IMG/VR virus record: IMGVR_UViG_3300018914_000003
Location: 1 to 54,386 of that record
DNA length: 54,386 nt
From: a virus
Reading direction: 5' to 3' (one strand)
A model generated the notes under the pieces. That model was given only the letters and a program-made list of their open reading frames with translations, searched no databases and had not been told where the DNA came from. Below, in pieces: positions 2,102-54,386 of the stretch. How positions within the stretch are numbered: the stretch's first letter is position 1; each line of letters begins with the position of its first letter. The position numbers and the translations under genes are program-made.

Positions 2102-2102
2102 T

Positions 2103-4757: not shown

Positions 4758-4758
4758 T

Positions 4759-5055: not shown

Positions 5056-5114
5056 ACCGGTTTGATTATTTTTTTTAATTAAGCTTTTGCCATCTGTTCC
5101 ACCAGGTGGCTTTT

Positions 5115-5387: not shown

Positions 5388-5620
5388 AATGTTATCTTTA
5401 TTCCGTTTGCAATTTTTAAGATCTTTTCAGCTAAAACTATTGCTTGATCTTTCTCTAAATAGCAACAATTTTCTACATCTGATTCTGAATTGTAAATAAC
5501 TAAGCAAACTTCATCAGAAGTTTCAGTTTCGCCCTGACTGTGCATGATAGATGTTTTTACTTTTTGAACACTAAGATTAGAGCCGCAGTTTGTTTCGATT
5601 TTATAGACTTTGTTTTTCAT
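5384..5620 (-). CDS. Unknown small protein, 78 aa (prophage A)
   Basis: No family recognised. Predicted beta strands at the N-terminus, then EVCLVIYNSESDVENCCYLE and a helix with LEKDQAIVLAEKILKIA. Its stop overlaps the DUF3853 start as ATGA, so translation is probably coupled. Prophage B carries a different 94-aa gene here (51994-52278) that also ends in a helix following a strand-rich half. Confidence 0.55.
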   Translation of the reverse strand: MKNKVYKIETNCGSNLSVQKVKTSIMHSQGETETSDEVCLVIYNSESDVENCCYLEKDQAIVLAEKILKIANGIKITL

Positions 5621-5624
5621 TGCT

Positions 5625-6368
5625 TTAACTTTTTCTAAATTCTAAAATTGATTTCCTCACAGATCTGGCAGCGAGGTTTGCGGTTTTAGCGCATTCTTCA
5701 TTACTATATCTTCTATTTTTCTCAATATCATCCATTGCTAAAGTTTCAGCAAAGGCAATTGATTGTAATTCAAGCAAAGACATATTCTCACGGAGATTAT
5801 CCTTTTTAGCAAGTCCTTTCTTCTCACGTATTTCCGATGCTTCTTTGCCGTATAATTCAACATACATGGCATTCGTGCATCTTTTGTAACCATCACCGAT
5901 AACACCGTGTTTTCTTAGGGTAGAGGTAAATTCATTTCTTACACCTTTTCCGGTAAGTCTCTTCATAATCCATTCGGAAGACATTCCTTTGCGTTCATAA
6001 GTCGAAATTGCCCGGTCAACAATTTTATCAGGATTTTTCTCCTCTTCAATTCTTTCAAAGAAAACTTCATTGACGAGAATGTGAAGTTTTGGATCTAAAT
6101 ATTTGGCATAAGCAAGAGCAATGTTTTTATGTGAAAATGTTCCACCGCCTTTTCCTTTTTTAGATTTTATAATGTGGTTTTTGACCGTATTTAAAATTTC
6201 AGTAGCAGCATCAATAAGATTTACCGCAGATTCGGTTCTTTGCCAATCATTTGGATTCTGGTTTTTAGGTGAGCCCGCAAGTTTCCAAAGGTCAGTCAAT
6301 GAAAACATTTCATTTTCTACTCTCACATTACTCAGGATGTCCTTCTTTCTGATTTTTTGTAGTTCCAT
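5625..6368 (-). CDS. KilA-N domain antirepressor-like protein (prophage A)
   Basis: 247 aa. The N-terminal ~110 residues are a KilA-N DNA-binding domain: SLTDLWKLAGS, WQRTESAVNLIDA, then GKGGGTFSHKNIALAYAKYL and the terminal LHILVNEVFFERI. The C-terminal half is helical. KilA-N proteins act as antirepressors or early regulators. It is the third gene of the early operon. Prophage B has a Rha-family gene here instead (52284-52898), a module swap. Confidence 0.8.
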   Translation of the reverse strand: MELQKIRKKDILSNVRVENEMFSLTDLWKLAGSPKNQNPNDWQRTESAVNLIDAATEILNTVKNHIIKSKKGKGGGTFSHKNIALAYAKYLDPKLHILVNEVFFERIEEEKNPDKIVDRAISTYERKGMSSEWIMKRLTGKGVRNEFTSTLRKHGVIGDGYKRCTNAMYVELYGKEASEIREKKGLAKKDNLRENMSLLELQSIAFAETLAMDDIEKNRRYSNEECAKTANLAARSVRKSILEFRKS

Positions 6369-6407
6369 AATTAATTTGTGAATTTTTCTGGATGTTCTTT
6401 AATTAGT

Positions 6408-6692
6408 CTAGCGAGGGTTTGCATTTATTTTAGCTGTGCGTTTTGATTTTTGTTTTATATTCATCACATTAATTAAATTTTGTGCATCATTGATCTGTTC
6501 CTGCATTTTTGCTTTCAAAACTTCCTGCACACGGTCAATTTTACTATCCGGAATTCTTGCATCATAGAACCAAAGGTTTTTAATAGATTCCGTTGATATT
6601 CCAAACTCTTTATGAAGCTGATACTTCACGTCTTCTTTTCTGTCATTGGTCAGACTTTTGAAAATTTCCTTTATGTTTTCTGCTTTGTTCAT
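6408..6692 (-). CDS. Cro-like first early gene, 94 aa (prophage A)
   Basis: The first gene transcribed leftward from the immunity region. Residues 15-60 resemble an HTH (VKYQLHKEFGISTESIKNLW), followed by a helix and a basic tail (KQKSKRTAKINANPR). By position and size a Cro-type regulator that would compete with the repressor at 6971-7510 for the same operators. Sequence is unrelated to the B counterpart at 52903-53130. Confidence 0.55.
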   Translation of the reverse strand: MNKAENIKEIFKSLTNDRKEDVKYQLHKEFGISTESIKNLWFYDARIPDSKIDRVQEVLKAKMQEQINDAQNLINVMNIKQKSKRTAKINANPR

Positions 6693-6736
6693 ATTATTTT
6701 TTATATTTGTTTGCGAGCAACAATGTTTTGTTATTT

Positions 6737-6766
6737 CAAAGATAATAAAGTTTATTTAAAGTACAA
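6737..6766 (-). promoter_or_regulatory. Leftward early promoter of prophage A
   Basis: On the minus strand a TTG at 6766-6764 is followed after 19 bases by TATCTTTG (6744-6737), a match to the Bacteroidota -33/-7 pattern TTG-N19/20-TAnnTTTG. It reads into the Cro-like gene at 6692 and the early operon behind it. Confidence 0.65.
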
Positions 6767-6802
6767 TAGTTTATATAAACTTTTTTGTTTAAAATTTAAA
6801 AC
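6748..6802. promoter_or_regulatory. Candidate repressor operators of prophage A
   Basis: Three related AT-rich sites: AAGTTTATTTAAAGT (6748-6762), the perfect palindrome AGTTTATATAAACT (6768-6781) and GTTTAAAATTTAAAAC (6787-6802). The half-site GTTTA/TAAAC recurs. The first lies between the -33 and -7 boxes of the early promoter and the second directly beside the -33 box, as expected for repressor/Cro operators. They are unlike the TACAGT sites of prophage B. Confidence 0.5.
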
Positions 6803-6970
6803 TTGTTGATTACCAATGCTATTATTTTCAATAGAAGTGGATGAATATTCCGCATAAACACGGTTAATGAATGTGAACAGATTATATAATTTTACTTTGA
6901 AAGGATGAATAAATATGGTAAACCGTAATTTAGTTAGCTAAAAAGTATTTTTTTACAAAAAACATTAAAT

Positions 6971-7510
6971 ATGAAAGAAAAAGAAAAGATAAACATGTTT
7001 ATTCAATATCTTTTAGTAAGTGGGAAGTATGAAAGCCAAGCCGATATTGGAAAAAAATTAGGCTATGATAATAAATCTTCTTTTTCTCAATTGCTTAAGA
7101 AAGAGATTACATCAACTTTTAAAGAAAAATTCATAAAACTATTTCCAGAGTATGAAGATTTTAATATAAACTTTGAAGTAAGTACAGAAAAAAAAGAAGT
7201 AAGTATAGAAAAAAAAGAGGATCAAACTAAAGAAAATGAATTCATTTCTTTACCGATTGAAGAAAAACTGAATATGATATATAGCCAAAATCTCAAAATA
7301 CAAGAAAAATTAGAAATAAATAAAAAAGCCTTAAAAACGAATGAAGAAAAAATTGAAGATATCAAACAAGACAATGCAGACCGGTATAAGGCAGCGTTAT
7401 TGTTTAACAGAATTTATTTTGACATGTTATTAGAGAATTTTAACATGCGCTTAGAAAACGAGAATAAGACAACAGTTGAAGATATTTTCGAAGAATCTAG
7501 TTTAAGTTAG
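6971..7510 (+). CDS. Phage repressor-like protein without a protease domain (prophage A)
   Basis: 179 aa, divergent from the early operon. The N-terminal 65 residues look like an HTH domain (SQADIGKKLGYDNKSSFSQL). A short duplicated linker follows (EVSTEKKEVSIEKKE). The C-terminal part begins with LPIEEKLNMIYSQN and continues as a coiled coil. The B repressor (53264-53803) shares the LPIEEKLN-IY-QN segment but has a different HTH. No S24/LexA-type serine protease is present, so RecA-triggered self-cleavage is not expected; induction may depend on the KilA-N protein. Confidence 0.7.
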   Translation: MKEKEKINMFIQYLLVSGKYESQADIGKKLGYDNKSSFSQLLKKEITSTFKEKFIKLFPEYEDFNINFEVSTEKKEVSIEKKEDQTKENEFISLPIEEKLNMIYSQNLKIQEKLEINKKALKTNEEKIEDIKQDNADRYKAALLFNRIYFDMLLENFNMRLENENKTTVEDIFEESSLS

Positions 7511-7855
7511 TTCGTAGGATTATTATACAAAATCTGAATTTAGTTACACAAAGACGCCTTGATGCTGTGGAATTTATTAATGATATCTGTTGTTTGGAGA
7601 AATACAAATCTCTTGAAAGCACACTAGTAAAAAGACCGTTGTTCTTATTATACTCATTATGATTTATTATTTTCATTTTATACATCTTTATGTTTAAAGT
7701 ATACAAGATGTCAATAATATTAATGCTAGCAGTCTTATCGTTATTCATGGTATTGAATTATAAGATTAAATATATTAAAATAATAATATTTTCTTTAGAT
7801 ATGAATAATTATTTTTAGTATCCGTCACATAACAATTAAAATTATAAACGTAAAC
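7511..7855. other. Gene-poor AT-rich stretch after the prophage A repressor
   Basis: No convincing gene. A leftward frame at 7497-7748 is open for 83 codons but its composition looks random and it has no counterpart at the matching place in prophage B. The stretch ends where the repeat shared with 54146 begins. Confidence 0.5.
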
Positions 7856-8095
7856 ATCTATAAGACAAAAGTATAATCACAAAGCGACAAAACTTGACGT
7901 ATTAAAAAAAGAATATGAATAAATTACAGATAGTTACATTTACGAAAAATATTAAATGGCGGATTTGTCGAACTAAATAAATTTATTATGAAAAAAATTA
8001 CAATCTTTTTATTAAGTGCTATTTTATTAAGTACTTCTTGCAGTAATAATGATTCAGAAGAGATTAAAACAGATATTACTGATAATCGCCCACCA
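7856..8095 (+). repeat. Direct repeat, left copy (lipoprotein leader and 5' gene part)
   Basis: Begins at ATCTATAAGACAAAAGTATA and matches 54146-54386 up to the window end. About 130 bases of upstream sequence match with scattered changes and one-base length differences, and the following coding bases (7988-8095) are identical. It is the only part of the post-repressor region shared by both prophages. Recombination between the copies would delete one prophage length. Confidence 0.9.
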
Positions 8096-9495: not shown

Positions 9496-10773
9496 TTGAA
9501 CCTAAAATACACACTAAATTTTTACATTAGACAGAATCAAAACGATGAACCTTCGAAGATAAGAGCTCTTGTGTCTTATAATGGTTACCGTCCAGAAATT
9601 TACACTAATACTGATGTGAAGCCTTCAGAATGGGATAAAACCATTCAAAGGATAAAAAACCCTAAAGACCCGAGAAATAAAGACATAAACAAGGTAGAAG
9701 AAATTTTTGAGAATATTTTTAAAGAATTTGACGTTATTGAAAAAAGGTTCCCAACAGTGGATGAACTCAAAATTAAATTTGCAGAAAAGACCGGAAAAGG
9801 AGCAAAGATAAAAAACATAAAAGCTCTTACTTTTGTTGAATGCATTGATGAATATGCAAGTGAGCAGGGCGAAAAAGATTCCTGGACAATTGCAAATTAT
9901 AACAGATTTAATAAATTAAAAAATCATTTCAGTTTCTTTGACAGTAAGTTATTAATTAAAAATACTACTGAAAAATCGTTAATAGCACTCGTAAAATACT
10001 TCCAAACAAAGCCGGTTATCTTTAAGTCCGGAAAACCGGGTGAACCGCACAAAAATACTACTGTTTCGAGGACGTTAAAGGATGTAAGGACAGTATTAAA
10101 ATGGGCAAAAAGAAAAGGCTTTTACGAGGGAGACCTGCACGAAACATTTTACCCAAAATTTAAAGGTGTCAATTACGACATAAATTATCCTATATATTTG
10201 AGTTGGGAAAGATTGCTGCAATTTTACAACCACAAATTCTCAAAAAATCAAAAACATTTAGAAACCACACGAGATATTATTGCATTTTGCTGTTTTACTT
10301 CTCTTAGATATTCAGATGTTTTCAATTTGAAAAAACACCAATTAAGAAAGGGCTTTTTTTATGTTACCACAATCAAGACAACCGATTCGCTTAAGATAGA
10401 TATTAACGATTATTCGAGAGAAATAATAGAGAAATATAAAGACCTTCCCGGAGAAAAGGTTTTGCCGGTTAAAAGCATGAAAGAAGCGAACGAACAGATA
10501 AAGGAAATCGGAAGGATTCTTGAATTTGATGAACTTGTAAATTACACATATTTTATAGGAGAAAAAAGATATGATGAAGTAATGCCGTTCTGTGAAATTA
10601 TGACCACCCATATAGGCCGGAAAACATTCATTGTTAACAGTCTATATTTGGGAATACCGGCCGAAGTTATTATGAAATGGACGGGACATAAAGACTATCA
10701 AAGCATGAAGCCTTATATTGCGATTGTGGACGATTTGAAGAAATCAGAAATGAGTAAATTCAATAAAAAATAA
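9496..10773 (+). CDS. Tyrosine-type site-specific integrase (prophage A)
   Basis: 425 aa from a TTG start at 9496, the first start before the conserved arm-binding domain (LNFYIRQNQNDEPSKIRALV). The order is arm-binding (1-90), SAM-like core-binding (~105-200), catalytic (~220-410). Catalytic residues visible: Arg in FTSLRYSDV, HIGR (H372, R375), TGH (H398) and the nucleophile Tyr407 in KPYIAI. It integrates and excises the phage. It lies at the end of prophage A, next to direct repeats that may be its arm sites. Confidence 0.9.
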   Translation: MNLKYTLNFYIRQNQNDEPSKIRALVSYNGYRPEIYTNTDVKPSEWDKTIQRIKNPKDPRNKDINKVEEIFENIFKEFDVIEKRFPTVDELKIKFAEKTGKGAKIKNIKALTFVECIDEYASEQGEKDSWTIANYNRFNKLKNHFSFFDSKLLIKNTTEKSLIALVKYFQTKPVIFKSGKPGEPHKNTTVSRTLKDVRTVLKWAKRKGFYEGDLHETFYPKFKGVNYDINYPIYLSWERLLQFYNHKFSKNQKHLETTRDIIAFCCFTSLRYSDVFNLKKHQLRKGFFYVTTIKTTDSLKIDINDYSREIIEKYKDLPGEKVLPVKSMKEANEQIKEIGRILEFDELVNYTYFIGEKRYDEVMPFCEIMTTHIGRKTFIVNSLYLGIPAEVIMKWTGHKDYQSMKPYIAIVDDLKKSEMSKFNKK

Positions 10774-42818: not shown

Positions 42819-43181
42819 TCAGTTAAATTTTGAAGATGGATATTTAAATTTATTTTTGTCATATTGAACTGTTTTTAAAACAATATCATTTAATGCTTTC
42901 GTTGCACAATAAAACAAATCAATCATAGGTTTTTTTGATTCTATTGATCTCTCAATATTTAATCCAGCAAAAAAGGCTTGTCCTTTATATTCTACCCAAT
43001 CAAAAGAAAAAGGAACATTTTTAAATAACTTTGCAATTTTATCTAACTCTTGACTATTTTCCATTTTTTTATAATTAAGTTTCCTTTCTTCTCGATTCTT
43101 CTGGTAAACTTCCTTGAAGGCTTCCATCTTTTCTTTTAGACTTGATTCAGGTCGTAAAGGTTTGACCAGTGTTTTATCCAT
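42819..43181 (-). CDS. Unknown protein, 120 aa
   Basis: Charged helical N-terminus (LKEKMEAFKEVYQKNREERK), then AKLFKNVPFSFDWVEYKGQA and a second helix. Overlaps the gene upstream by 46 nt. No family recognised. Confidence 0.5.
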   Translation of the reverse strand: MDKTLVKPLRPESSLKEKMEAFKEVYQKNREERKLNYKKMENSQELDKIAKLFKNVPFSFDWVEYKGQAFFAGLNIERSIESKKPMIDLFYCATKALNDIVLKTVQYDKNKFKYPSSKFN

Positions 43182-44029
43182 TCCGTTTCGGTTTCTTCGT
43201 TTAATTTTAAGTGTAAGATGTACTGCTTTATGATTTCGTCCTGGAACTCTACATACACATCTTTTTTTATTACTTTCGGTAGTTGTGTCGATCCGGTAGC
43301 TGTTAATTTCCCTTCTGCGACTTCTGGTACAAAGTTTTTCAAGAATTCTTCCACGAACTGCAGCCGGATCTTATCACCTCTTTTTTTCTTTATGAGATCA
43401 TAGAAAAGTGGCGTTGCTAAAACTTTCCCGTCAGCATTGAACCTGTGATAATCTTTTTTAATATTTTCAAGACTCATTTTTTTAAGTTCGTCATCCGTTA
43501 CTTCTTTCGCAGGAGGTGCAAGAAATTTCTGTAATTCTCGTTTTCCGTTTGCGTATCTTGTATCCTGCTGCTTGAATATCTGATAAGCCTGTTCGACTTC
43601 TGAAAGATTAATCTGATTGATTTCACGGTAGATTTTTACTTTCTGTTCGTCTAAAACCAATTGACCTTTCATTGCCATTTCCAAAGCGAGTAAATATTCA
43701 CCCTCTGTCAGATCACATCTTCTGCCGAAATCTTTAACTTTATTTTTCGCAATATTGAAATCTGAAAATTGGTCATCGGTATCGTCATCTGAAAATTTCG
43801 GATCGATCGCTAATAAAACACGATTAGCAAATCTTTCAAGGGTTGCATTATCTGACCACTTCAACTTCGATTGTTGTATCTCCGCTTTGACCGTTTCCGG
43901 TAGACTGCTCACGAGCTTGTCGGGCAAGTATGGAAGAAGAGGAGACTTTCCCGGAAACTTTAGAACCTCCAAAGGTATTTCTGTTATGGCCTGTAAAGCC
44001 GTTGTTTGTGTTGCTATTTGATTGTCCAT
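43136..44029 (-). CDS. Replication-associated protein of unknown family, 297 aa
   Basis: Helical protein: FANRVLLAIDPKFSDDD, NKVKDFGRRCDLTEGEYLLA, then EVEQAYQIFKQQDTRYANGK and RLQFVEEFLKNFVPEVAEGK. Its first 61 codons overlap, in a different frame, the C-terminus of the initiator gene. Order (initiator then this gene) suggests a helicase loader or replication partner; this is inference. Confidence 0.55.
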   Translation of the reverse strand: MDNQIATQTTALQAITEIPLEVLKFPGKSPLLPYLPDKLVSSLPETVKAEIQQSKLKWSDNATLERFANRVLLAIDPKFSDDDTDDQFSDFNIAKNKVKDFGRRCDLTEGEYLLALEMAMKGQLVLDEQKVKIYREINQINLSEVEQAYQIFKQQDTRYANGKRELQKFLAPPAKEVTDDELKKMSLENIKKDYHRFNADGKVLATPLFYDLIKKKRGDKIRLQFVEEFLKNFVPEVAEGKLTATGSTQLPKVIKKDVYVEFQDEIIKQYILHLKLNEETETEWIKHWSNLYDLNQV

Positions 44030-44747
44030 AAATCGGTTTTAAGTGAGGTATTGTATTTCTTAGTTTGCTTTTCCATGAAAGAATCGGTTTTTTATGCCCG
44101 TCTTTCCATCCTGAATCTATCCAGCTTTGATATTTGGCTCGTATTGCGAATTCGTAGGGCGAAAAATCCACTTTTATATCATTTTGGTATATTTCTCTAG
44201 CACAGTTGACGAAAGTCTCTAAATCGGGCGTTTCTGACTTTTCTTTTTTTGGCGCAACTTTTTTTCTTTCTTCTACATCAGGAATTTTATCTTGTTGAAA
44301 AAGTTCTTCTGGAAATTCGCTTAATAAATTATTCTCTTTTGATTCTTTTTTTAAAAGAATACTGTTTAGTTTAGTTTTGTTTAGTTTATTAATAGGTTCG
44401 GACTGCGGTGCGGACTGCGGTTCGCTTTGTGGTTCGGACTGCGGTTCGCTTTGTGGTTCATATTGGACTGCAAATGATATTAAATTATAGATTGCAGACT
44501 GATTTCCTTTTCTCTCACGCCATTCAATACGTCCTGATTGTTTTAAAATATTTCGAGCTCTTTTAAAAGAAGAATTACTTAATCCAGACTTTAAACACAA
44601 TACCGATGAAGCCACTGTAAATTCTACTTTCCATCCTGCTTTATTATTTATATGCATTAATGCGTGCCATAAAGTAATTGCTGAATCTGAAACGGAATTT
44701 GTTTCGAGCCAATCATAAAATGAGTTTATTTCTTTGATATAATTCAT
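43848..44747 (-). CDS. Replication initiator, DnaD/HTH-type, with EPQS repeat linker
   Basis: 299 aa. N-terminal winged helix (SAITLWHALMHINNKAGW, then LSNSSFKRARNILKQSGRIE), a linker of six four-residue repeats (EPQS, one APQS), a Lys-rich stretch, and a C-terminal helix region (SPYEFAIRAKYQSWIDSGWK). The last 60 residues are Ser/Gly/Asn-rich and overlap the next gene by 182 nt. Initiator genes of this type often contain the origin within them. Confidence 0.65.
   Translation of the reverse strand: MNYIKEINSFYDWLETNSVSDSAITLWHALMHINNKAGWKVEFTVASSVLCLKSGLSNSSFKRARNILKQSGRIEWRERKGNQSAIYNLISFAVQYEPQSEPQSEPQSEPQSAPQSEPINKLNKTKLNSILLKKESKENNLLSEFPEELFQQDKIPDVEERKKVAPKKEKSETPDLETFVNCAREIYQNDIKVDFSPYEFAIRAKYQSWIDSGWKDGHKKPILSWKSKLRNTIPHLKPIYGQSNSNTNNGFTGHNRNTFGGSKVSGKVSSSSILARQAREQSTGNGQSGDTTIEVEVVR
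44361..44459. other. Candidate replication origin: 12-base repeats beside an AT-rich segment
   Basis: Within the initiator gene, GGTTCGGACTGC-type 12-base units (coding the EPQS repeats) occupy 44395-44459. They abut an AT-rich stretch with the repeated GTTTAGTTTAGTTTTGTTTA at 44363-44382. Iteron array plus AT-rich element inside an initiator gene parallels the lambda origin within gene O. Function is inferred. Confidence 0.45.
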
Positions 44748-44762
44748 GATTTTTATTCCAAA

Positions 44763-44806
44763 TCTTTAATGTTACACGGGTATCTCACCCCTTTACTGTT
44801 TTTAAA
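44763..44806 (-). pseudogene. C-terminal remnant of the small 45073-45237 gene
   Basis: Reads NSKGVRYPCNIKDLE to a TAA. The neighbour at 45073-45237 ends NSKGIRFPCNIKDLE. No start of its own. Probably the leftover of a duplication of that small gene spanning 44802-45071. Confidence 0.5.
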
Positions 44807-45072: not shown

Positions 45073-45237
45073 TTATTCTAAATCTTTAATGTTGCAGGGA
45101 AACCTAATTCCCTTACTATTTTCATACGTTACAGCGTTTCCGCTTACAGAGATGATCTTTACTTTCTCTCCTTTCTTTCCCCAGACATGCTGTTTATACT
45201 TGTTGTCTTTGTTTAGGGTTTTAATCTCGCCGATCAT
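45073..45237 (-). CDS. Small protein, 54 aa, coupled to the methyltransferase
   Basis: MIGEIKTLNKDNKYKQHVWG, then KKGEKVKIISVSGNAVTYEN: a small beta-barrel-like domain (KOW/SH3-like strand pattern). Its ATG overlaps the methyltransferase stop as ATGA. Function unknown. Confidence 0.55.
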   Translation of the reverse strand: MIGEIKTLNKDNKYKQHVWGKKGEKVKIISVSGNAVTYENSKGIRFPCNIKDLE

Positions 45238-46078: not shown

Positions 46079-46435
46079 CTAGGCATGAGATAATTTTGAT
46101 TTAAATCTGTCTAAGTCCGAAATCTTGAAATACTTCTTATTTCCGTGTCGTTTCAAAAAGGGAATTTTTGTTTTCGCCTGCCTACGGGAAAAAGTGTTGT
46201 AAGATAGATTCAGATATATTGCTGCATCTTTACTGTTGAGCATTCCGGCACTATCATCAATTTTATTTAATTCTCTTGAAAACTGGCTTTCTCCCTGCTT
46301 CAAGAAAACTGCTTTTCTCGGGATTGATTTTGCTTTTTCCAAAGCATGAAGCGCGTCTTCATGTGCTTTTTCCTTTGCGGTTCTCGAACCAACTTTATTT
46401 TCTTCGCTGGTAGAGGTTATGTCTTTTTTAGCCAT
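46079..46435 (-). CDS. Excisionase-like helix-turn-helix protein
   Basis: 118 aa. A charged N-terminal arm, then the MerR/HTH_17-type domain LNSKDAAIYLNLSYNTFSRR, with the wing IPFLKRHGNKKYFKISDLDR. Excisionase/regulator type. First 13 codons are identical in prophage A (1-40). Confidence 0.75.
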   Translation of the reverse strand: MAKKDITSTSEENKVGSRTAKEKAHEDALHALEKAKSIPRKAVFLKQGESQFSRELNKIDDSAGMLNSKDAAIYLNLSYNTFSRRQAKTKIPFLKRHGNKKYFKISDLDRFKSKLSHA

Positions 46436-46437
46436 GA

Positions 46438-46644
46438 TTATAATATTTCAATTGTTTTACTTGGTTTCGGAAGACTTAGGTAATAATCCATGTCGTATAT
46501 AAAACTCCCTCGTGTGCGTTCCATTTCTGATTTGGTGAGGACTTTGTGTAGTCGGGCAAAATACCAGGATCGGAAATTTTCGTGATCCTCTTTGTCGTAA
46601 ACTCTCGGTTTCCGGTTGGTTTGAGGATGATGTGTTATTGCCAT
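46438..46644 (-). CDS. Small conserved phage protein, 68 aa (prophage B)
   Basis: Near-identical to 43-249: same basic, aromatic region (ENFRSWYFARLHKV). Unknown function. Starts 4 bases after the HNH gene zone and precedes the HTH gene. Confidence 0.65.
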   Translation of the reverse strand: MAITHHPQTNRKPRVYDKEDHENFRSWYFARLHKVLTKSEMERTRGSFIYDMDYYLSLPKPSKTIEIL

Positions 46645-46686
46645 TAGTTTTCATTTATTGTTTTTAGAATTTGATATTTGTATTCT

Positions 46687-46950
46687 TTAAGAATATATTT
46701 CAATGTTCTTTTTGTGAACTTCTGTTAAATATTCTTTTGTGAAAATATTTGCGTGTGCTTTCTCATGGCAGGTTCTACATAGTGCAATAAGGTTTTCAAT
46801 CTTATCCTGAAGATGCTTTGTTTTAGAACCGAATTCAGATCTTCTTTTGATGTGATGAATTTCGGTTGCTTGTTTATGGCATATTTCGCAATGGTAGAAC
46901 CCGGAATGAGAAGGGAAAAATTCAAGATAGACCTTTGTATGTTTCTCCAT
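46687..46950 (-). CDS. HNH domain protein, 87 aa (prophage B)
   Basis: CEICHKQATEIHHIKRRSEF and CRTCHEKAHANIF define the HNH metal site. Copy of 292-555 with few changes. Small single-domain nuclease or structural zinc protein. Confidence 0.8.
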   Translation of the reverse strand: MEKHTKVYLEFFPSHSGFYHCEICHKQATEIHHIKRRSEFGSKTKHLQDKIENLIALCRTCHEKAHANIFTKEYLTEVHKKNIEIYS

Positions 46951-47242
46951 TTTGTTTCTGTTTGTTTTTAGGGTTTAAAGGATGGTTAAGGTTATCATGA
47001 ATTATTTTATGATCAGTATTGCAAACAGTTATCAACCATTTCAGATTTTCACTCTCTTTGCCTCTTATACTTTCATTATTGACATAATATGTTATATGAT
47101 GAACCTCTAACCTAACCTTTGAACCGCAAATTCTGCATTGATGTCCGTCCCTTATTTTCACTTTTCGTTTTGCTTCATCCCATTGGGGATCACTTTTTAA
47201 CGAATTAAGATATTTGCTGGGTCTTCCCTTTATTTTTCCCAT
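46922..47242 (-). CDS. Second HNH endonuclease-like protein (prophage B)
   Basis: 106 aa from ATG 47242, the start that aligns with 847 in prophage A. CRICGSKVRLEVHHITYYVN and CNTDHKIIHD give the HNH fold. The C-terminus is a few residues longer than in A (KNKQKQNGETYKGLS). Overlaps the small HNH gene by 29 nt. Confidence 0.8.
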   Translation of the reverse strand: MGKIKGRPSKYLNSLKSDPQWDEAKRKVKIRDGHQCRICGSKVRLEVHHITYYVNNESIRGKESENLKWLITVCNTDHKIIHDNLNHPLNPKNKQKQNGETYKGLS

Positions 47243-47792
47243 TTTTAAGACCTTCAAAGAATTTTTCATTTTTGTCTGTCTGACTGAATAACTCTTCTTT
47301 TTCGGAATCAGTCATCAGGGAAATTTTAACCAGAACAACTTCACCACTGTCAAGCCAGGCATAATGATAGTATTTGCCTTTTAATGCTACTTTGTTGATT
47401 CGGTTTGCCGGAATTTCAATTTCGGTTCTGCCATTTTTCACTTCTGCTGCCACATCTTGCATTTCTGTTTGAAGGGCGTTATAAGTTTCAAATGCTCCTT
47501 CTTTGAATTTTTTGGCATCTGCCAGATGAATTTCCGCTTCTCGCAAAACTTGTTTTGCTTTCGGAATTTCATCCTTTGCGATTTCCAAAATTTGTTCATC
47601 CATAGCCTGAATTTCTTCTTCTGAATAGAATCTCTGTGCAAAAGTTTTCTGATGTTCTGCAACCATATTTAAAGCAAAAAATTCCTGAAACTCTTCAATG
47701 GTTTCAAATGTTCCTAAATTTTCAGGTAAATTGTCGTCATTTCCTGAAACGCTGAAAGCGTGAATAAATGGGATTTGTTCTATTACTTGCAT
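47205..47792 (-). CDS. Unknown early coiled-coil protein, 195 aa (prophage B)
   Basis: Same length and layout as 810-1397 (N-terminal HAFSVSGNDDNLPENLGTFE, coiled middle, beta end with YYHYAWLDSGEVVLVKISLM) but heavily diverged in the middle. No family recognised. Confidence 0.65.
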   Translation of the reverse strand: MQVIEQIPFIHAFSVSGNDDNLPENLGTFETIEEFQEFFALNMVAEHQKTFAQRFYSEEEIQAMDEQILEIAKDEIPKAKQVLREAEIHLADAKKFKEGAFETYNALQTEMQDVAAEVKNGRTEIEIPANRINKVALKGKYYHYAWLDSGEVVLVKISLMTDSEKEELFSQTDKNEKFFEGLKNGKNKGKTQQIS

Positions 47793-47809
47793 AATGTTTT
47801 TTTTAATTA

Positions 47810-48256
47810 TTATAAATAGATTTTGTTGTGATGTTGTTCCAATTGATTTTCGATTTCTTCCAGGTGAATCACATCTTTCGGTTCTGGCAGATACAGGTTT
47901 AAAGTTTTGATTGAATAGTTTCTGAATCTTTCAGTTGCAGCGGACATTTCTTCTGTGTTAAGTTCTGCTGTACTTTTGATTCGGTCCCTTACTTCTCCGG
48001 TTTGATAGTTGATAAACTCAGTTTTGAAAATGTTCTCATTAACTTTTTGTTTAAAAATAATTTGCTTTACATACTCAAGAGTTTCACCATATTCCAATGC
48101 ATACCATCCAAGAATTAAATGCAGATAATTGTTTTGGCTGTACGTCCTGTTTTTCTTCTTTTCCAAGACTTCAATCTTTGCATTCTTATCAAGAAGATGC
48201 TTAATCCTGTTTATTGCTTTTTTTCTCATGTCCGGTTTGGAAGTATCGAAAATCAT
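47810..48256 (-). CDS. NinB-like recombination protein (prophage B)
   Basis: 148 aa, close copy of 1409-1855, with the same AINRIKHLLDKNAKIEV start and QNNYLHLILGWYALEYGE segment. Predicted recombination mediator. Confidence 0.6.
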   Translation of the reverse strand: MIFDTSKPDMRKKAINRIKHLLDKNAKIEVLEKKKNRTYSQNNYLHLILGWYALEYGETLEYVKQIIFKQKVNENIFKTEFINYQTGEVRDRIKSTAELNTEEMSAATERFRNYSIKTLNLYLPEPKDVIHLEEIENQLEQHHNKIYL

Positions 48257-48262
48257 CTTGTT

Positions 48263-48496
48263 TTACTTTTCAAGTTGTTGTAAAAGTTCATCCGCCGCTT
48301 TTAATGCTCTCACAGCTAAATATTCAGGAGTTTGAGAATTGTTTGATGATAACAATCCTTGCAATGCTAATCCCGCAAAATATTCTCTTTTTGAAAGACC
48401 ATGATTTACTTCACAATTCCAAACTTCAGATAGTGGAGTTTTACTATTTGTGTTACTGATGACTTGTGGATGTATCGATTTTTCTGAATTTTCCAT
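48263..48496 (-). CDS. Small conserved phage protein, 77 aa (prophage B)
   Basis: GLSKREYFAGLALQGLLSSN motif retained; two residues shorter than the A copy (1862-2101). Unknown function. Confidence 0.65.
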   Translation of the reverse strand: MENSEKSIHPQVISNTNSKTPLSEVWNCEVNHGLSKREYFAGLALQGLLSSNNSQTPEYLAVRALKAADELLQQLEK

Positions 48497-48497
48497 T

Positions 48498-49190
48498 TTA
48501 TAAAGAATTTAAAAGTTGTTTTTTATGTTTTTCAGCTAACTGAAGACGCCTTTTTATTTTTGCCATATCAAGTTCATCCCTTTCGACTTTAACAATCAGA
48601 ATTTGTTGATTTTCATTTTTGAACCTTTCATCATAAGAAATGAAGTATCCGTTTTTTCGGCCGGTTGCTAAAAGATTTCCTTGAATCTGCCAATAGTAAT
48701 TTGATTTATGTTTTTTTAGATCTACAGCAGTTTTTATATTTCGTAGATAAAAAAGATGTGTTTTTGATTTAGGACATTTAATTTCAATTAAACTATCATC
48801 ACCAAATAGTCCGTCCGGCGTTCCACCGAAATAAGAGCACATTTCAACAAACTCCTGATTATCACCGACAGCAAAACATTTAACATTCATTACTTTCTCA
48901 AACCTTTCTACTCCTTCAACCTCCTTATCAGTACCCCGCTCCATATCTTCATTCTTGTAGGTTTCGCGACTTTTACCATCAGTAAGAATTGCGACAATAA
49001 TTTCTTCTATGTAAATAATAGCACCTTTTGGAAGTTCATCAATTTTATCTTCGTAGGTTAAGAGCTTTGATAAGCATGAAGAAGTAAATTTATCATCACG
49101 CTGTTTGTGCCAACTTTCCACCTTATCAAGTTCATCGTTTAAAACCACTGCCTGTGATAAGTCAGGCAGTGTCATTTTTTGAATTTCCAT
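48498..49190 (-). CDS. YqaJ/lambda-type exonuclease (prophage B)
   Basis: 230 aa from ATG 49190, where the upstream stop overlaps as TAATG; a start at 49223 would lie inside the upstream gene. GGTPDG, LIEIKCP and YYWQIQGNLLATGRK carry the nuclease site. It lacks the long N-terminal extension of the A enzyme. Confidence 0.85.
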   Translation of the reverse strand: MEIQKMTLPDLSQAVVLNDELDKVESWHKQRDDKFTSSCLSKLLTYEDKIDELPKGAIIYIEEIIVAILTDGKSRETYKNEDMERGTDKEVEGVERFEKVMNVKCFAVGDNQEFVEMCSYFGGTPDGLFGDDSLIEIKCPKSKTHLFYLRNIKTAVDLKKHKSNYYWQIQGNLLATGRKNGYFISYDERFKNENQQILIVKVERDELDMAKIKRRLQLAEKHKKQLLNSL

Positions 49191-49621
49191 TATGATGTAA
49201 TGAATAAAGGTTTTACACTCCATCTATCGGATTGATATGCATTTGTAGCATTTTTCTGCTTTCCTAAGAATTCAATTTTTAAAGGAGTTCCCGGAACAAC
49301 TTTGTTTTGGTGAACAGCATCTTCTAACGAAGCAACAAGTCTTTTAGATCCGTTACGTATTGTTTTAAGTTCACCAGATGACTTTTGTTCCAGAAGTACA
49401 ATGCAAGGAAGTTCAATGGTCTCACCGCTTTTTTCATCGGTATAAGTCGAATTCTTGATTTCTTGAAAGAAACATAATTTGAATTCTCCTTCTTTTTCCG
49501 GCGTCCAATATTCGCTTGTTAGATCTGCCGGTATAACTTGAGCCTCTGAAAGATTTGGAAGAGTTCCCATCAGGTCAAAAGATTGTAACTGATTATCGTT
49601 GTTTTTTTGTAATTGTGACAT
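49190..49621 (-). CDS. Putative recombination partner of the exonuclease, 143 aa (prophage B)
   Basis: Strand-rich: FKLCFFQEIKNSTYTDEKSG, then CIVLLEQKSSGELKTIRNG and GTPLKIEFLGKQKNATN. Not alike in sequence to the A gene in this slot (2962-3384) but similar in strand order. Perhaps a single-strand-binding or annealing protein. Confidence 0.5.
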   Translation of the reverse strand: MSQLQKNNDNQLQSFDLMGTLPNLSEAQVIPADLTSEYWTPEKEGEFKLCFFQEIKNSTYTDEKSGETIELPCIVLLEQKSSGELKTIRNGSKRLVASLEDAVHQNKVVPGTPLKIEFLGKQKNATNAYQSDRWSVKPLFITS

Positions 49622-49628
49622 ATATGAT

Positions 49629-50792
49629 TTATTTAAAGTTTTTGATTACGGAAATTGAATCTGAAATTGAATCAGCTATTCTCTGCAAGCATTTTTGGAA
49701 TTCTTCTCTCAATTTCTCGTCTGAAATTTTAGGTTCATTGTTTAAATAATTCATGCTTTGGATATATTCAACTGCCTTTTGTTTTTCAGGTTTTAAAGAT
49801 TCCAATCTTGCAGCCTCTGTTTTTGCTTTTTTTTCGTCTTCTGCATGTTCTTTTGCAACTCGTTCAGCTTCTTCTATAACTTTGCGTTCAGCTTCATCTT
49901 TGGCGGTTTTTTCGGCTTCAATTTTCGCAAGACGTTGTTTTTCAGCTTCAATTTCTTCACGCTCTTTTCTTAAATTTTCTTCTTTTGCTTTCAGTTCTGC
50001 TTCCTGCTTTTCTTTTTCAGCTGCCAATTCTGCACGTTCGTGTAATAATTTTTTTTCGTTTTCGGCTTGAATTTTGGCTTGTTTTTCGGCTTCTGCTTTT
50101 TGATCTGCTTCCAATTTTGCTTGAGCTGCTTCAAGTTTTTTTCTCTCTTCTTCCATCTTTATTTTTTCAACCCTGTGCGCTTCAGCTTCTTCAAGAGCTA
50201 TAATTTTGGATGAAAGAGTATTTTTCACGAGGATTATTTTTTCATTGAAGTCAAGTTCAAATTCCTCGAATTGTGCAACATCAGTTTGGAAAAGGTTTTG
50301 TTCAAAATCAACTTTAAGAGAATCAATTGTTTCAAATGAAAGGCTATTGATTTTAGCAAGGGATTCATCAATTAAAGCACTGATTGAATTTTTGATTGTA
50401 TTCTTCCTTTCTTCTTCAATTCTTAATTTCTCCTGTTTTTCTTTCTCCTTGATTTCTTCCCATCTTTTAACTTCAGATTGTTGTTTTTCTTCATGTGGTT
50501 TGGTAATAGAAATCAATCCTTCACTTGCCCCAGCAACTGCTTCCCGGAATTTTTTAATTTTGGAAGCAATTAATTTATCCTGGTTTTGGATTTCAGTTCT
50601 GGCAGTAACAAGGATTGTTCTTGTTTTTTTTGCTTCCTCATAAGTTTTATTATCAGTGATTTCAACGAAAGGATTTTCTTTGACTATTTGCAGCTGCTTT
50701 TCTTTCATTCCATGAAGTTCAGGAAGGTTGTTTACATCTACCTGTTCTATTAAAAACAAACTGTTTTCTGTGTTTTCTAAAGTTTCTGACAT
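49629..50792 (-). CDS. Long coiled-coil recombination-region protein, DUF1351-like (prophage B)
   Basis: 387 aa. N-terminal half near-identical to 3405-4550; the coil from ~215 to 330 has different heptads, and the C-terminal globular end is similar again. Likely a recombination accessory. Confidence 0.65.
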   Translation of the reverse strand: MSETLENTENSLFLIEQVDVNNLPELHGMKEKQLQIVKENPFVEITDNKTYEEAKKTRTILVTARTEIQNQDKLIASKIKKFREAVAGASEGLISITKPHEEKQQSEVKRWEEIKEKEKQEKLRIEEERKNTIKNSISALIDESLAKINSLSFETIDSLKVDFEQNLFQTDVAQFEEFELDFNEKIILVKNTLSSKIIALEEAEAHRVEKIKMEEERKKLEAAQAKLEADQKAEAEKQAKIQAENEKKLLHERAELAAEKEKQEAELKAKEENLRKEREEIEAEKQRLAKIEAEKTAKDEAERKVIEEAERVAKEHAEDEKKAKTEAARLESLKPEKQKAVEYIQSMNYLNNEPKISDEKLREEFQKCLQRIADSISDSISVIKNFK

Positions 50793-50804
50793 TCTTGTGG
50801 TTTT

Positions 50805-50945
50805 TTAATTTTCGTTTTCTAAGTCCTTTATTTCTTTGATGAATTCGTTAACCGCTGTGAGTTCTGCGTGGGTTAAAGTATCATAACCTATCCTCTTGGC
50901 GTTGACATACCATCTTCCGTCTATATTTTCTATTCTGATATTCAT
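50805..50945 (-). CDS. Small protein, 46 aa
   Basis: MNIRIENIDGRWYVNAKRIG, then LTHAELTAVNEFIKEIKDLE: one strand pair and a helix. ATGA overlap with the gene upstream. Confidence 0.5.
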   Translation of the reverse strand: MNIRIENIDGRWYVNAKRIGYDTLTHAELTAVNEFIKEIKDLENEN

Positions 50946-51130
50946 TTTGGGGTTTTTAAAAATTCAGTAAATTGATTGTAATACAGCCTGATGGTAGAAA
51001 AGATGATCAATAACCCGATACAGAATAATGTCGTTGAGTAATCAAGGTTTTCACACTGGCTGTTTTTGTCTATGTCTGACCAGATCGCAACAATTAGCAA
51101 TATGATCACTGTGTTTAAGGCTGTTTTCAT
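50942..51130 (-). CDS. Small membrane protein, 62 aa
   Basis: Two hydrophobic helices (TALNTVIILLIVAIWSDI and LFCIGLLIIFSTIRLYYNQF) with a Cys-containing loop. Unknown function. Confidence 0.5.
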   Translation of the reverse strand: MKTALNTVIILLIVAIWSDIDKNSQCENLDYSTTLFCIGLLIIFSTIRLYYNQFTEFLKTPK

Positions 51131-51132
51131 AT

Positions 51133-51285
51133 CTATGTTGCTTCTTCTGAAATATTTATAATCTTCATTTCTTCACCCCAATTACAGATAAATCTACCCT
51201 TTGCAAAATCTTCATTAATTGCTTCGATTTTAATTTTTCTGATGGAGCCATCTGTATGTAAAAATTCAATAATGTAATTTTTCAT
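51133..51285 (-). CDS. Small protein, 50 aa
   Basis: MKNYIIEFLHTDGSIRKIKI, then EAINEDFAKGRFICNWGEEM: a beta hairpin, helix, strand pattern. No family recognised. Confidence 0.5.
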   Translation of the reverse strand: MKNYIIEFLHTDGSIRKIKIEAINEDFAKGRFICNWGEEMKIINISEEAT

Positions 51286-51296
51286 GATCTTTATTA

Positions 51297-51620
51297 TTAT
51301 GCGTTTAGTTTAATAATTAAATTTTCAGAGATTAATTTTTCAAGCTGTCTTCTTTCAAGCGAGTTCAGCTCGATGTCTTCGCATTCCCGGCTATCGTAAG
51401 CCGAAAGAAAATGCACTTTCACTTTAGTTACTTCGGTTCGGTTCCATGCCGGGTCAAAGGCTAAATCAATTTCAAGAGATACATCAATGCTGATCTCATC
51501 GTCTTCGCAAAGTGTCAACCTTGTTTCAAAGTATGATCTCTCGTCCGTGTAGATCATCGCTTCCAATTTTTGAGCTTTTATTTGCTCAATTGGATTTAAA
51601 AGTGTTACATTTGTTGCCAT
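51297..51620 (-). CDS. Unknown protein, 107 aa (prophage B only)
   Basis: Acidic beta-rich protein: YFETRLTLCEDDEISIDVSL, then KVKVHFLSAYDSRECEDIEL, ending in a helix. Takes the slot of the A gene 4759-5055. No family recognised. Confidence 0.5.
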   Translation of the reverse strand: MATNVTLLNPIEQIKAQKLEAMIYTDERSYFETRLTLCEDDEISIDVSLEIDLAFDPAWNRTEVTKVKVHFLSAYDSRECEDIELNSLERRQLEKLISENLIIKLNA

Positions 51621-51675
51621 TATTGGGTTTACTTTAATCGGTTAAACTTTTGCCATCTGTTGCTGCAGGTGGCTT

Positions 51676-51948
51676 TTATTTTTTGCTAATGAAATAAAGC
51701 TCGATTGCCTTTTTAGAATCTATTTTCATCTGCTTTCCAGAGTTCATTATTGCAGCGTCAATAATTCCTGAATTTTTAATTTCCTGCGCTTTTGTCAATC
51801 CGCAATTAAAAAGTTTTGCAATTCCTCTCATTCCGTAAACCCATTCTATTTCCTGCTTATCTTCTTTACTTATGGCGACCCGGATCGTTTCAATAAATTC
51901 CCGGCCTGTCATTTGAAAGATGTGTTTGTCTAATATTTCGGAGTTCAT
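51676..51948 (-). CDS. DUF3853-family helix-turn-helix protein (prophage B)
   Basis: 90 aa; two residues differ from 5115-5387. HTH region YGMRGIAKLFNCGLTKAQEI. It lies between non-homologous neighbours in A and B, so it is an island of identity. Confidence 0.75.
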   Translation of the reverse strand: MNSEILDKHIFQMTGREFIETIRVAISKEDKQEIEWVYGMRGIAKLFNCGLTKAQEIKNSGIIDAAIMNSGKQMKIDSKKAIELYFISKK

Positions 51949-51993
51949 GATGTTATCTTTTTTCAGTTGGAAACTTTTTTTGATAATTTTCCA

Positions 51994-52278
51994 TTATTTA
52001 GATATTAAAGTGTAAGTTTTAGGATTAGAATTAACAACATCAGCCAATAAATTATACAAATTAGATATCTGGGCAGGTTCAAGCAAAAACACATTAGGAT
52101 AAGATCCATTTGTACTATCTACTTTGTCGATAAATAGCATAATATCTGCCTGATCAGTGACTTGAAAACTTAAAGCGTTCTCGCCAAGAGAATTAAAAAT
52201 TATTTTGCCATTTGTTTTTTCTTCAAACTCCTCAATCTCTTTCGGTGTCATATCACCGAATAGTTTTTCGTTTTTCAT
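51994..52278 (-). CDS. Unknown protein, 94 aa (prophage B)
   Basis: LFGDMTPKEIEEFEEKTNGK, then IMLFIDKVDSTNGSYPNVFL and a C-terminal helix (ISNLYNLLADVVNSN). No family recognised; replaces 5384-5620 of prophage A. Confidence 0.5.
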   Translation of the reverse strand: MKNEKLFGDMTPKEIEEFEEKTNGKIIFNSLGENALSFQVTDQADIMLFIDKVDSTNGSYPNVFLLEPAQISNLYNLLADVVNSNPKTYTLISK

Positions 52279-52283
52279 TTTTA

Positions 52284-52898
52284 TTAATTTAAATTTGTAT
52301 TATTGAAAACGTTTTCTAAAATGTAAAGTGGATATGTTTTAACTCTTCCAAATCTTGGATCTGGAATTTCATCCATCAGAATATTATTATCTTTACATAT
52401 TTTAGAAGCAATCCTACCCATTTTAGAGGCTACCGGAAGAGGGCAGGCTATATTATTTAAAGTCGCATAACCAACTATCGTAAAGTAATCAGGTGTTGTT
52501 TTTGATTGATTTTCAATCTTATTAATTTTTGATTCTAAACTACCAATCCTTTTATCTTGCTCAATTAAAATTTGCGTTGACTGCGCAAGAATTTCTAATT
52601 GTGAAAGTGGTTTTATTTGTTTTTCAGCTTCTAAAGTTTCCCATCTTAAAACCAGTTTAGCTCTCGATTCATCATTGAATTTTGATCCAACAAATAAGCA
52701 TTCTGTTTTATCTAAAATATATTCGGGTCTACTTTTGCCTTGTTCGTCAGTATAACTAGCCAACGTAAAATTTCGTCCGCTAACTTTCTGCCATGTAGCG
52801 TCCATTTTTCTGATCGCATTTAAAATGTCAGAATGTCGTTTTCCTGTAATTTCAGCAATTTGCCTACTTGACATGGTTTGATTTCTCTGTACTTCCAT
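52284..52898 (-). CDS. Rha-family phage regulatory protein (prophage B)
   Basis: 204 aa from ATG 52898 (MEVQRNQTMSSRQIAEITGK); a longer frame overlaps the upstream gene. Rha signature: SSRQIAEITGKRHSDILNAI, FTLASYTDEQGKSRPEYILD and FVGSKFNDESRAKLVLRWET. A C-terminal half with DPRFGRVKTYPLYILE differs from plain Rha and may be a second DNA-binding part. Rha proteins antagonise lysogeny. Confidence 0.8.
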   Translation of the reverse strand: MEVQRNQTMSSRQIAEITGKRHSDILNAIRKMDATWQKVSGRNFTLASYTDEQGKSRPEYILDKTECLFVGSKFNDESRAKLVLRWETLEAEKQIKPLSQLEILAQSTQILIEQDKRIGSLESKINKIENQSKTTPDYFTIVGYATLNNIACPLPVASKMGRIASKICKDNNILMDEIPDPRFGRVKTYPLYILENVFNNTNLN

Positions 52899-52902
52899 AA
52901 TA

Positions 52903-53130
52903 TTAATTTGTGAATTTTTCCAGGTGTTTTTTTGCTTTTCCCTTTTCAAACATTTCTTTCTTTTTCAATCCCAATTCCTTTTCCAGAATCTCAACTCTGT
53001 CATCGCGGGTAAATTCAATCGGATTTTTCATCCATCTGATAAATGTTACTACCGATATACCTAATGCATAAGCGATTGGGTATTTTTTATCCCCCTTAAC
53101 TTTTTCTTTGAAAGCTTGTGTTATTTCCAT
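52903..53130 (-). CDS. Cro-like first early gene, 75 aa (prophage B)
   Basis: HTH: KYPIAYALGISVVTFIRWMK, then DDRVEILEKELGLKKKEMFE. First gene from the leftward promoter at 53169-53200. Unrelated to its A counterpart. Confidence 0.6.
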   Translation of the reverse strand: MEITQAFKEKVKGDKKYPIAYALGISVVTFIRWMKNPIEFTRDDRVEILEKELGLKKKEMFEKGKAKKHLEKFTN

Positions 53131-53168
53131 TTTTATTAATTATTTTTGGATATTCAATTTTGATATAA

Positions 53169-53199
53169 CAAATATACAGTTATTACTGTATTTAAACAA
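53169..53199 (-). promoter_or_regulatory. Leftward early promoter of prophage B
   Basis: Minus strand TTG (53199-53197), 20 bases, then TATATTTG (53176-53169). Same form as in prophage A. Confidence 0.65.
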
Positions 53200-53222
53200 A
53201 TTTATTTACAGTTTTTTACAGT
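53175..53222. promoter_or_regulatory. TACAGT operators of prophage B
   Basis: Four copies of one half-site: TACAGT-TATT-ACTGTA (perfect dyad, 53175-53190) and TACAGT-TTTT-TACAGT (direct pair, 53207-53222). The dyad lies between the early promoter's two boxes, so repressor binding there would block RNA polymerase. Confidence 0.65.
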
Positions 53223-53263
53223 AAAAATTATAACTAATTGATTATCAATAATAAAATTTAATA

Positions 53264-53803
53264 ATGGATACAGAAAATAATTCTCCTTATTATCGTCTTG
53301 AAAAAATAATGGAATATTATGGTTTAAACCCAAATGCGTTTGCTAATAAAATCGGATTAAAAAGAACACAAAACCTGTACGACATTCGTGATGGAAAGAT
53401 TAAAAAGATAACTTTCGATCTTGCAAACAAAATAAATACAGTATTTACTGCAATAAATAAAGATTGGCTTTTAACTGGTGAAGGCGAAATGCTTGTAAAT
53501 GACCATGCTGTTATCAAAGAAAAAGACAATGATTTTAAAAATCTACCAATTGAAGAAAAATTAAATATAATATACCATCAAAATATTGAAATAAACAACC
53601 AAAATATTGAATTAAAGAATCAGAATATTGAAATAAAAGCAGCTATTGCAACAAATAAAGAAACTGCTGAAAATAATAAAGAGAGAATTGATGATGTTAT
53701 GTTTATTTTGGACTCTCATACAAAAATGATTGTCAATTTGTGGGAAAAAGGAATTAAAAAGCCAGAAGATAAAAAAGTTAAAGAGATCCGAGCTAAAAAT
53801 TAA
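53264..53803 (+). CDS. XRE-family repressor without protease domain (prophage B)
   Basis: 179 aa. HTH: FANKIGLKRTQNLYDIRDG, then FDLANKINTVFTAINKDWLL and the family tail LLTGEGEM. LPIEEKLNIIYHQN links to a repetitive coiled coil (NIEINNQNIELKNQNIEI). No S24 peptidase. It faces the early operon and would bind the TACAGT sites. Confidence 0.8.
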   Translation: MDTENNSPYYRLEKIMEYYGLNPNAFANKIGLKRTQNLYDIRDGKIKKITFDLANKINTVFTAINKDWLLTGEGEMLVNDHAVIKEKDNDFKNLPIEEKLNIIYHQNIEINNQNIELKNQNIEIKAAIATNKETAENNKERIDDVMFILDSHTKMIVNLWEKGIKKPEDKKVKEIRAKN

Positions 53804-54036
53804 TTGGAATAAAATTGAATTATAAGTATACACTTCCGGAACAGATTAATATTACATGAAGCCATGTCTATTTTTAATAATTTTATTTGTGAATCATTTA
53901 ACATTACACCGTAAGCAATTTTAGATAAAAGAAACTCTTGATTAATCATATACTCATCAACATCAATAGAATGATCTGTTAAATAATTTTCATTATAAGT
54001 CATTAATGTTTTTATAATTTTCTTGTTATCGCTCAT
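53800..54036 (-). CDS. Unknown protein, 78 aa, convergent with the repressor
   Basis: KIIKTLMTYNENYLTDHSID, then QEFLLSKIAYGVMLNDSQIK: helical and plausible for ~60 residues, with a more random end. Overlaps the repressor stop by 4 nt. No counterpart in A. Confidence 0.4.
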   Translation of the reverse strand: MSDNKKIIKTLMTYNENYLTDHSIDVDEYMINQEFLLSKIAYGVMLNDSQIKLLKIDMASCNINLFRKCILIIQFYSN

Positions 54037-54145
54037 GGTAATTAATGTAATGCTTTCAAATATATAAAATGTCTAATTAATTTTTAAACATCAATAGCAA
54101 TTTATTTTTATTATAAATAAAATAATAATTAATATATATTCCTAA

Positions 54146-54386
54146 ATCTATAAGACAAAAGTATAATCACATTGCGACAAAACTTGACGTATTAAAAAAA
54201 AGAATAAGAATAATTTACACGTATTTACATTTACGGAAAATATTAAATGGCAGATTTGCCGAACTAAATAAATTTATTATGAAAAAAATTACAATCTTTT
54301 TATTAAGTGCTATTTTATTAAGTACTTCTTGCAGTAATAATGATTCAGAAGAGATTAAAACAGATATTACTGATAATCGCCCACCA
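54146..54386 (+). repeat. Direct repeat, right copy
   Basis: Matches 7856-8095. The non-coding leader shows about a dozen differences including a one-base insertion, while the coding part is identical. The repeat continues past the window end, so its full length is unknown. The stretch before it (54037-54145) is AT-rich with nothing seen. Confidence 0.9.
54279..54386 (+). CDS. Phage-borne lipoprotein, 5' part (prophage B)
   Basis: 36 codons to the window edge: signal peptide MKKITIFLLSAILLSTSC with lipobox, then a short Asn/Asp linker. Same place relative to the repressor as 7988 in prophage A. The intact gene presumably continues beyond the edge. Confidence 0.7.
   Translation, partial: MKKITIFLLSAILLSTSCSNNDSEEIKTDITDNRPP

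Follow-up and report, generated by a model that had tools for sequence, protein, structure and literature searches.

The 54,386-nt viral sequence analysed here (the window; IMG/VR virus record IMGVR_UViG_3300018914_000003) very probably carries the phage's replication origin inside the gene for its own initiator, at 44364–44459, where a GC-rich array of 12-bp repeats (iterons) adjoins an AT-rich element built on the pentamer AAACN. An origin within the initiator gene had already been suggested from the letters of the window; that suggestion is now supported by the arrays of relatives, by conservation of the region as DNA, by the way in which repeat sequence tracks a recognition helix, and by the unstable DNA that follows the array. 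Origins located inside initiator genes are of a known kind, represented by lambda O, SPP1 g38, pSK41 and Tuc2009, and three traits of this layout are found in the window: a DNA-binding initiator domain, in-gene iterons and an adjacent low-stability element.

The array and its host gene

The array and the AT-rich element are both present as the sequence-only reading had described them. Its count of six repeats holds for the YG(A/C)ACC cores, which begin at 12-bp spacing at 44460, 44448, 44436, 44424, 44412 and 44400, but not for full 12-mers, of which there are only five plus a half unit. In order, the units are GAACCACAAAGC, GAACCGCAGTCC, GAACCACAAAGC, GAACCGCAGTCC and GCACCGCAGTCC, followed by the half copy GAACCT; in peptide terms these are five full EPQS/APQS codon blocks and then EP. 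The 24-bp version of the array has a TRF score of 99, the highest of the 65 TRF rows for the window, and within the gene the best self-identity over 36 nt is 0.75 for lag 12 and 0.86 for lag 24, where 1000 codon shuffles reach a maximum of 0.67 at each lag. Inverted symmetry of the iteron units, calculated over 94 arrays, is 5.89 as against 5.92 when shuffled, that is, there is no palindromy.

The AAACN part of the element consists of AAACTAAACAAAACTAAACTAAAC and follows ATTAAT, which directly adjoins the array. The repeated GTTTA segment that had been noted beside the repeats spans 44364–44387 (TRF 44364–44388, five copies); with up to three mismatches allowed, it is matched once in the window and in none of 100 shuffles. 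The further observation that the coding repeat is also a DNA repeat, and GC-richer than its surroundings, proved correct: GC content is 0.606 for the array, 0.167 for the element, 0.359 for the gene and 0.328 for the window, and of all 66-nt stretches of the window only 0.08% match the array in GC-richness. A search of the window for a second origin revealed no recurrence of either the AAACN element or the array; a loose 12-mer scan gave 28 matches versus 21 expected, with a tandem cluster only at the array.

Table 1. Features of the putative origin and of the initiator gene (window coordinates).
Feature	Position	Strand	Remarks
Iteron array, five 12-bp units plus half unit	44394–44459	(-)	encodes EPQSEPQSEPQSEPQSAPQSEP
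Putative DNA unwinding element	44364–44393	(-)	ATTAAT then (AAACN)5; encodes INKLNKTKLN
Initiator gene	43848–44747	(-)	299 aa; ORF call, PHROG matches, AlphaFold model
N-terminal winged-helix domain (NTD), residues 1–92	44472–44747	(-)	pLDDT 91–98 in the AlphaFold model
Predicted recognition helix, residues 58–70	44538–44576	(-)	helix in the model; residues 56–66 best predict iteron similarity
Helical C-terminal domain (CTD), residues 172–238	44034–44234	(-)	common to initiators with other NTDs

The AlphaFold model of the initiator reveals a winged-helix NTD, a linker carrying the array, which is predicted to be disordered (block mean pLDDT ≤62, residues 91–170), and a helical CTD. In the PHROG profile scan the protein matches PHROG 186, DnaD-like helicase loader (4.3e-12, residues 1–143), and its N-terminal half matches PHROG 19658, replication initiation (1.1e-9). 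Structure comparison indicates that the best solved fold matches of the NTD are those of plasmid RepA proteins (4pql_B, Z 11.0, rmsd 2.2 over 86; 4pt7_B, Z 10.8, rmsd 2.4 over 86; Foldseek E 3e-3). Two other candidates, the DnaB primosome protein 5wtn_C (Z 9.3) and PLE RepA 4ro3_B (Z 8.4), are weaker and were set aside. At the sequence level, a PDB search using the NTD profile returned nothing at E 10, and Pfam RepA_N (PF06970) matched neither the whole protein at E 0.1 nor any of 13 NTDs at E 1. Pfam HTH_36 matches 10 of the 13 NTDs (best 8e-6), that of the window being among those without a match; Phage_rep_O does not match the window protein and matches one of 13 relatives at E 0.078. The CTD, which is found behind other NTDs in L005, L007, L010, L011 and L046, probably recruits a helicase or loader; neither a helicase nor a loader gene was identified when nine neighbouring proteins were scanned alongside the initiator.

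The next ORF, 43136–44029, overlaps the initiator gene by 182 nt (43848–44029) in a different frame; its true start may lie further in, since its PHROG match does not start until residue 55. A 50-nt direct repeat (78%), at 44753–44802 and 45073–45122, is situated immediately upstream of the initiator gene. The latter copy forms the 3′ terminus of an ORF of 54 aa, whose product ends in RFPCNIKDLE, and the former may for this reason be a gene remnant.

Arrays and recognition helices among relatives

Tetrapeptide repeats occupy the place of the array in homologues from Chryseobacterium, Paenibacillus, Clostridia and uncultured phages. The tetrapeptides differ (VPQS, DTQT, SATL, EVNH, GTTQ, ADNH, PNLP, VADT), and so do the iterons, which include EPQS-type and TGCCGACAA-type sequences. 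A gene-blind scan, in which viral contigs were searched with the 18-base element, returned 112 loci, and 83 of the 96 distinct element contexts are read in the K-L-N frame. For the 67 ORFs that have the element with at least 40 codons ahead of it, self-identity of the DNA upstream peaks at lag 12 (0.583) and lag 24 (0.566), every other lag to 30 giving 0.25–0.28; lag-12 self-identity is at least 0.50 in 51 of them and lower in 16.

A motif-free sample was assembled by gathering relatives by the NTD alone, giving 160 loci, from which 121 non-redundant ORFs were kept (at least 110 codons, no more than 95% alike). Linker repeats beat all 20 codon shuffles in 104 of these, where about six would be expected by chance; counts of relatives are inflated by shared ancestry, near-identical sequences alone having been removed. 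The best lag is 12 in 62 arrays, 24 in 36, 23 in three, 10 in two and 15 in one. Relatives with the same initiator and no repeats, whose existence was to count against an origin, do occur as a minority: 17 of the 121 are without a significant array, as are 11 of 25 in a genome set rich in Bacillota. The signal in this second set is weaker, with significant arrays in 14 of the 25 and periods of 12 (six), 24 (five), 11 (two) and 15 (one). The element is also present without an array in some relatives, such as L322.

A domain match was obtained in 59 of 173 genomes from the genus to which the L018-bearing genome (Chryseobacterium lathyri) belongs. Thirty-one loci were read, and five phage-type initiators among them carry a 12/24-bp array. 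The remainder, mostly 105–117 aa proteins together with the "MYYQELIQKFW" group, revealed no comparable array when read without a shuffle test, the nearest approaches inside their ORFs being L359 (0.64 at lag 24) and L345 (a 15-bp repeat, 0.83). These array-free domain proteins serve as natural negative controls. The 105–117 aa protein (MNYIKHLTAFYEKVAQDNTLNPSHISLYL...; L347–L356, L360, L362–L366 and L369) is highly conserved, array-free and of the same domain type, and it occurs in many genomes of the Chryseobacterium-type genus. Three proteins with the window's CTD and another NTD also have repeats in their linkers: that of L011 contains two distinct 12-bp arrays (EALD and STVQ), and those of L007 and L046 contain AT-rich repeats of the NDN/VNVND type, possibly another hidden type of origin.

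The phase between array and element is fixed. On the 12-bp grid set by the element, YG occupies columns 6–7 in a mean of 0.45 of the units, as against only 0.06–0.17 at the other equivalent codon junctions, and columns 2–5 are the most variable. Comparison of the sequences further indicates that the iteron follows the recognition helix. In a regression over 94 arrays (identity at least 0.67), iteron similarity is best predicted by residues 56–66 (beta 0.193, with none of 1000 permutations as high) and secondly by residues 43–55 (0.113, p 0.008), the rest of the domain not being significant. Where helices are at least 70% alike, iteron similarity is 0.53–0.69, versus 0.44–0.47 for dissimilar helices at similar identity elsewhere in the domain; the lowest identity band of helix-alike pairs holds two pairs only. 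The gut phages MT835516, L253 and L240, in which EPQS recurs, combine EPQ-type iterons with a KRARN/KRSRN helix resembling that of the window.

The stability of the DNA was compared in 80 relatives, and in 63 of these the 40 bp after the array rank among the least stable 10% of their gene. In the window the corresponding 40 bp lie at the 95th percentile of instability within the gene, and the array belongs to the most stable parts of that gene. We surmise that the NTD, by way of its recognition helix, would bind each 12-bp unit, presumably with one protomer per unit, given that the units show no inverted symmetry. The resulting head-to-tail complex would melt the adjoining AAACN element, and either the replicative helicase or its loader would be brought in by the CTD. 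The peptide encoded by the array would be a tolerated spacer, and a 12-bp period would allow iteron copies to be gained or lost with the reading frame kept. The AAACN register, likened here to the 3-nt DnaA-trio and to the 5-nt motif of RctB, might perhaps represent a code for single-strand recognition or helicase loading with a 5-nt step, as part of a wider undescribed replicon class. Its period leads to a specific model of melting or loading, which is testable.

The same repeats could be bound by the initiator without being an origin, as an internal autoregulatory operator or a centromere-like partition site. Fold matches of the winged helix also include repressors and TubR (4asn), which binds a plasmid centromere, and partition sites are likewise tandem repeats, but we consider this improbable: the array lies in the middle of the gene, with no second copy in the window, and an origin is the better fit to the low-stability element beside the array in most relatives, to the family assignment to replication initiators, and to related systems, in which repeats inside the gene are origins.

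Conservation as DNA

Across relatives, the sequences of array and element are conserved as DNA and not as peptide, as shown by out-of-frame repeats, by the codon choice in AAACN and by a 5-nt period that is not that of codons. Two contigs, L246 and L248, possess one identical intact ORF in which the array continues out of frame; the iteron is first read as VPQ(S/F)EPQN, and a single step of 11 bp then shifts the same DNA into a different frame, where it reads NHNVNHNLYHNMN. In L219 and L222, 18 of 18 bases are repeated at lag 23. In plasmid pBac41 the period is 11 bp and the encoded peptide is not repetitive; its repeats and the 12-bp array of Paenibacillus L012 have one core in common, ACACAGAAC, and the recognition helices of the two are similar. 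Altogether, 30 stretches reach 0.83 identity at a non-codon lag, versus 0.2 expected per shuffled data set; displaced iterons are found in seven members, and most other cases represent the lag-10 period of the element.

Codon positions were compared in 42 of the 67 arrays (lag-12 identity at least 0.45, no more than 80% alike). Mismatches between adjacent copies are even (0.29/0.34/0.33), with no third-position excess, a statistic that carries weight only together with the out-of-frame and phase evidence, because neutral tandem duplication also equalises mismatches. Where the residues differ, the two codons still have the same third base in 54% of 416 cases, versus 27% in controls. Codon choice in the element was counted in the 24 of 38 relatives having the K(LQP)..(TN)K motif. 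Leucine is encoded by CTA in 19/19 cases (63/481 elsewhere in the same genes), lysine by AAA in 62/62 (370/564) and asparagine by AAC in 30/42 (183/484). The autocorrelation of the element over 99 relatives has peaks of 0.62, 0.60 and 0.58 at lags 5, 10 and 15, the null being approximately 0.45, with no peak at 3 or 12.

These data bear on the view that the array is a mere repetitive (EPQS)n peptide linker arisen through slippage, its DNA repeat a by-product and no origin. Such a linker would suit the predicted disorder of this region, the frame-preserving tetrapeptide units at period 12 and the reappearance of EPQS in the three gut phages. We regard it as very improbable: the unit peptides of relatives are chemically unrelated, yet period and place are constant, and a peptide repeat accounts neither for the seven members with out-of-frame repeats, one of them an intact ORF on two contigs, nor for the neighbouring element with its 5-nt period and fixed codons. 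A peptide-only reading is rejected because the DNA repeat runs on out of frame and the unit peptides are unrelated. A role in the mRNA, as structure, antisense target or ribosome effect, is scarcely credible. In the relatives read, the coding strand is indeed the one on which the element is conserved, but the predicted folding of 44340–44480 is no more stable than that of shuffled sequences (z −0.78) and leaves the A-rich element unpaired, and specificity tracks the DNA-recognition helix.

Comparison with known replicons

Published systems are compared here as described in excerpts of the papers cited. The comparison with lambda O that was drawn from the window's sequence is valid as an analogy where layout is concerned; among solved structures it is instead plasmid RepA (e.g., pSK41) that comes nearest. 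Lambda iterons are longer than those of the window and do not form a codon-multiple array. Like the window, ori-lambda has iterons and an AT-rich tract situated centrally within the initiator gene (PMC7466680). Phage SPP1 oriL consists of direct repeats in gene 38, bound by the initiator gp38, with an AT-rich DUE (PMC6316719); set side by side by description, the likeness lies in direct repeats inside an initiator gene together with such a DUE. SPP1 has a second origin, oriR, whereas none is seen in this window. The Rep proteins of lactococcal phages Tuc2009 and TP901-1 are annotated as DnaD-like helicase loaders and both have linker repeats, and a GenBank note places the origin within Tuc2009 orf16. 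These differ from the window in having a period of 15 rather than 12 and a weak AAAC match (13–14/20), and with that period and no AAACN they were excluded as the same architecture. Lactobacillus phage A2 was dropped as a proven relative; it gives no support because its annotated rep_origin lies downstream of the primase.

The RepA_N plasmid replicons (pSK41, pTZ2162) resemble the window, as far as the excerpts go, in the winged-helix fold of the NTD and in the modularity of NTD-origin and CTD. In pSK41 the origin and Rep boxes lie centrally in rep, in the part coding for the linker, and the origin-coded linker is dispensable in trans (PMC5703833). In pPR9 a phage-like HTH_36 NTD and the origin region have been grafted onto the pSK41 CTD in a natural swap (PMC5703833), and modularity of this type exists here as well, since the window's CTD sits behind other NTDs. 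The iterons of RepA_N are semi-palindromic around a poly-A tract (PMC7145576), whereas the window has asymmetric direct units of 12 bp and an adjacent AAACN element. The window initiator was not classed as RepA_N because it lacks both the Pfam match and palindromic iterons. The pSK41 review names pUSA03 as the carrier of a hybrid initiator like that of pPR9 (PMC5703833). This plasmid was rejected as a 12-bp case: its rep linker (L337:537–651) contains exact 23-bp repeats (not a multiple of 3) and then 15-bp repeats, which are likely its iterons.

The iterons of Vibrio cholerae ori2 are 12-mers, and to our knowledge RctB is unrelated to the window's initiator. From what is described, RctB and ori2 work alike, with iterons and a 5-nt single-strand motif, (G/A)ATCA, that differs from AAACN (PMC10797057). 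A search of openly licensed PMC papers found no description of a phage origin combining 12-bp iterons with AAACN, and this architecture, common to phages of Bacteroidota and Bacillota, looks to be new. We tentatively suggest an undescribed and widespread class of phage replicon in which an HTH_36-type initiator, 12-bp iterons and AAACN move as one cassette. It is conceivable, with similar reserve, that this specificity cassette has been exchanged between Bacteroidota and Bacillota phages and joined to interchangeable CTDs.

If the origin reading is correct, origins could be located by sequence alone in numerous phages for which no start of replication is known, uncultured gut and Bacteroidota phages among them. 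Each iteron could be paired with its recognition helix, which would give natural data for a protein–DNA recognition code and a choice of replicons that differ by nature. The odd tetrapeptide repeats of phage initiators would then be explained as DNA sites read through as protein.

The left end of the record (1–8095) repeats the early region at its right end (46395–54385) with 84–94% DNA identity, the left-end copy being cut off before its initiator gene. An integrase-like ORF is present at 9496–10773. Two related prophages may adjoin in this record, one of them represented by its end only.
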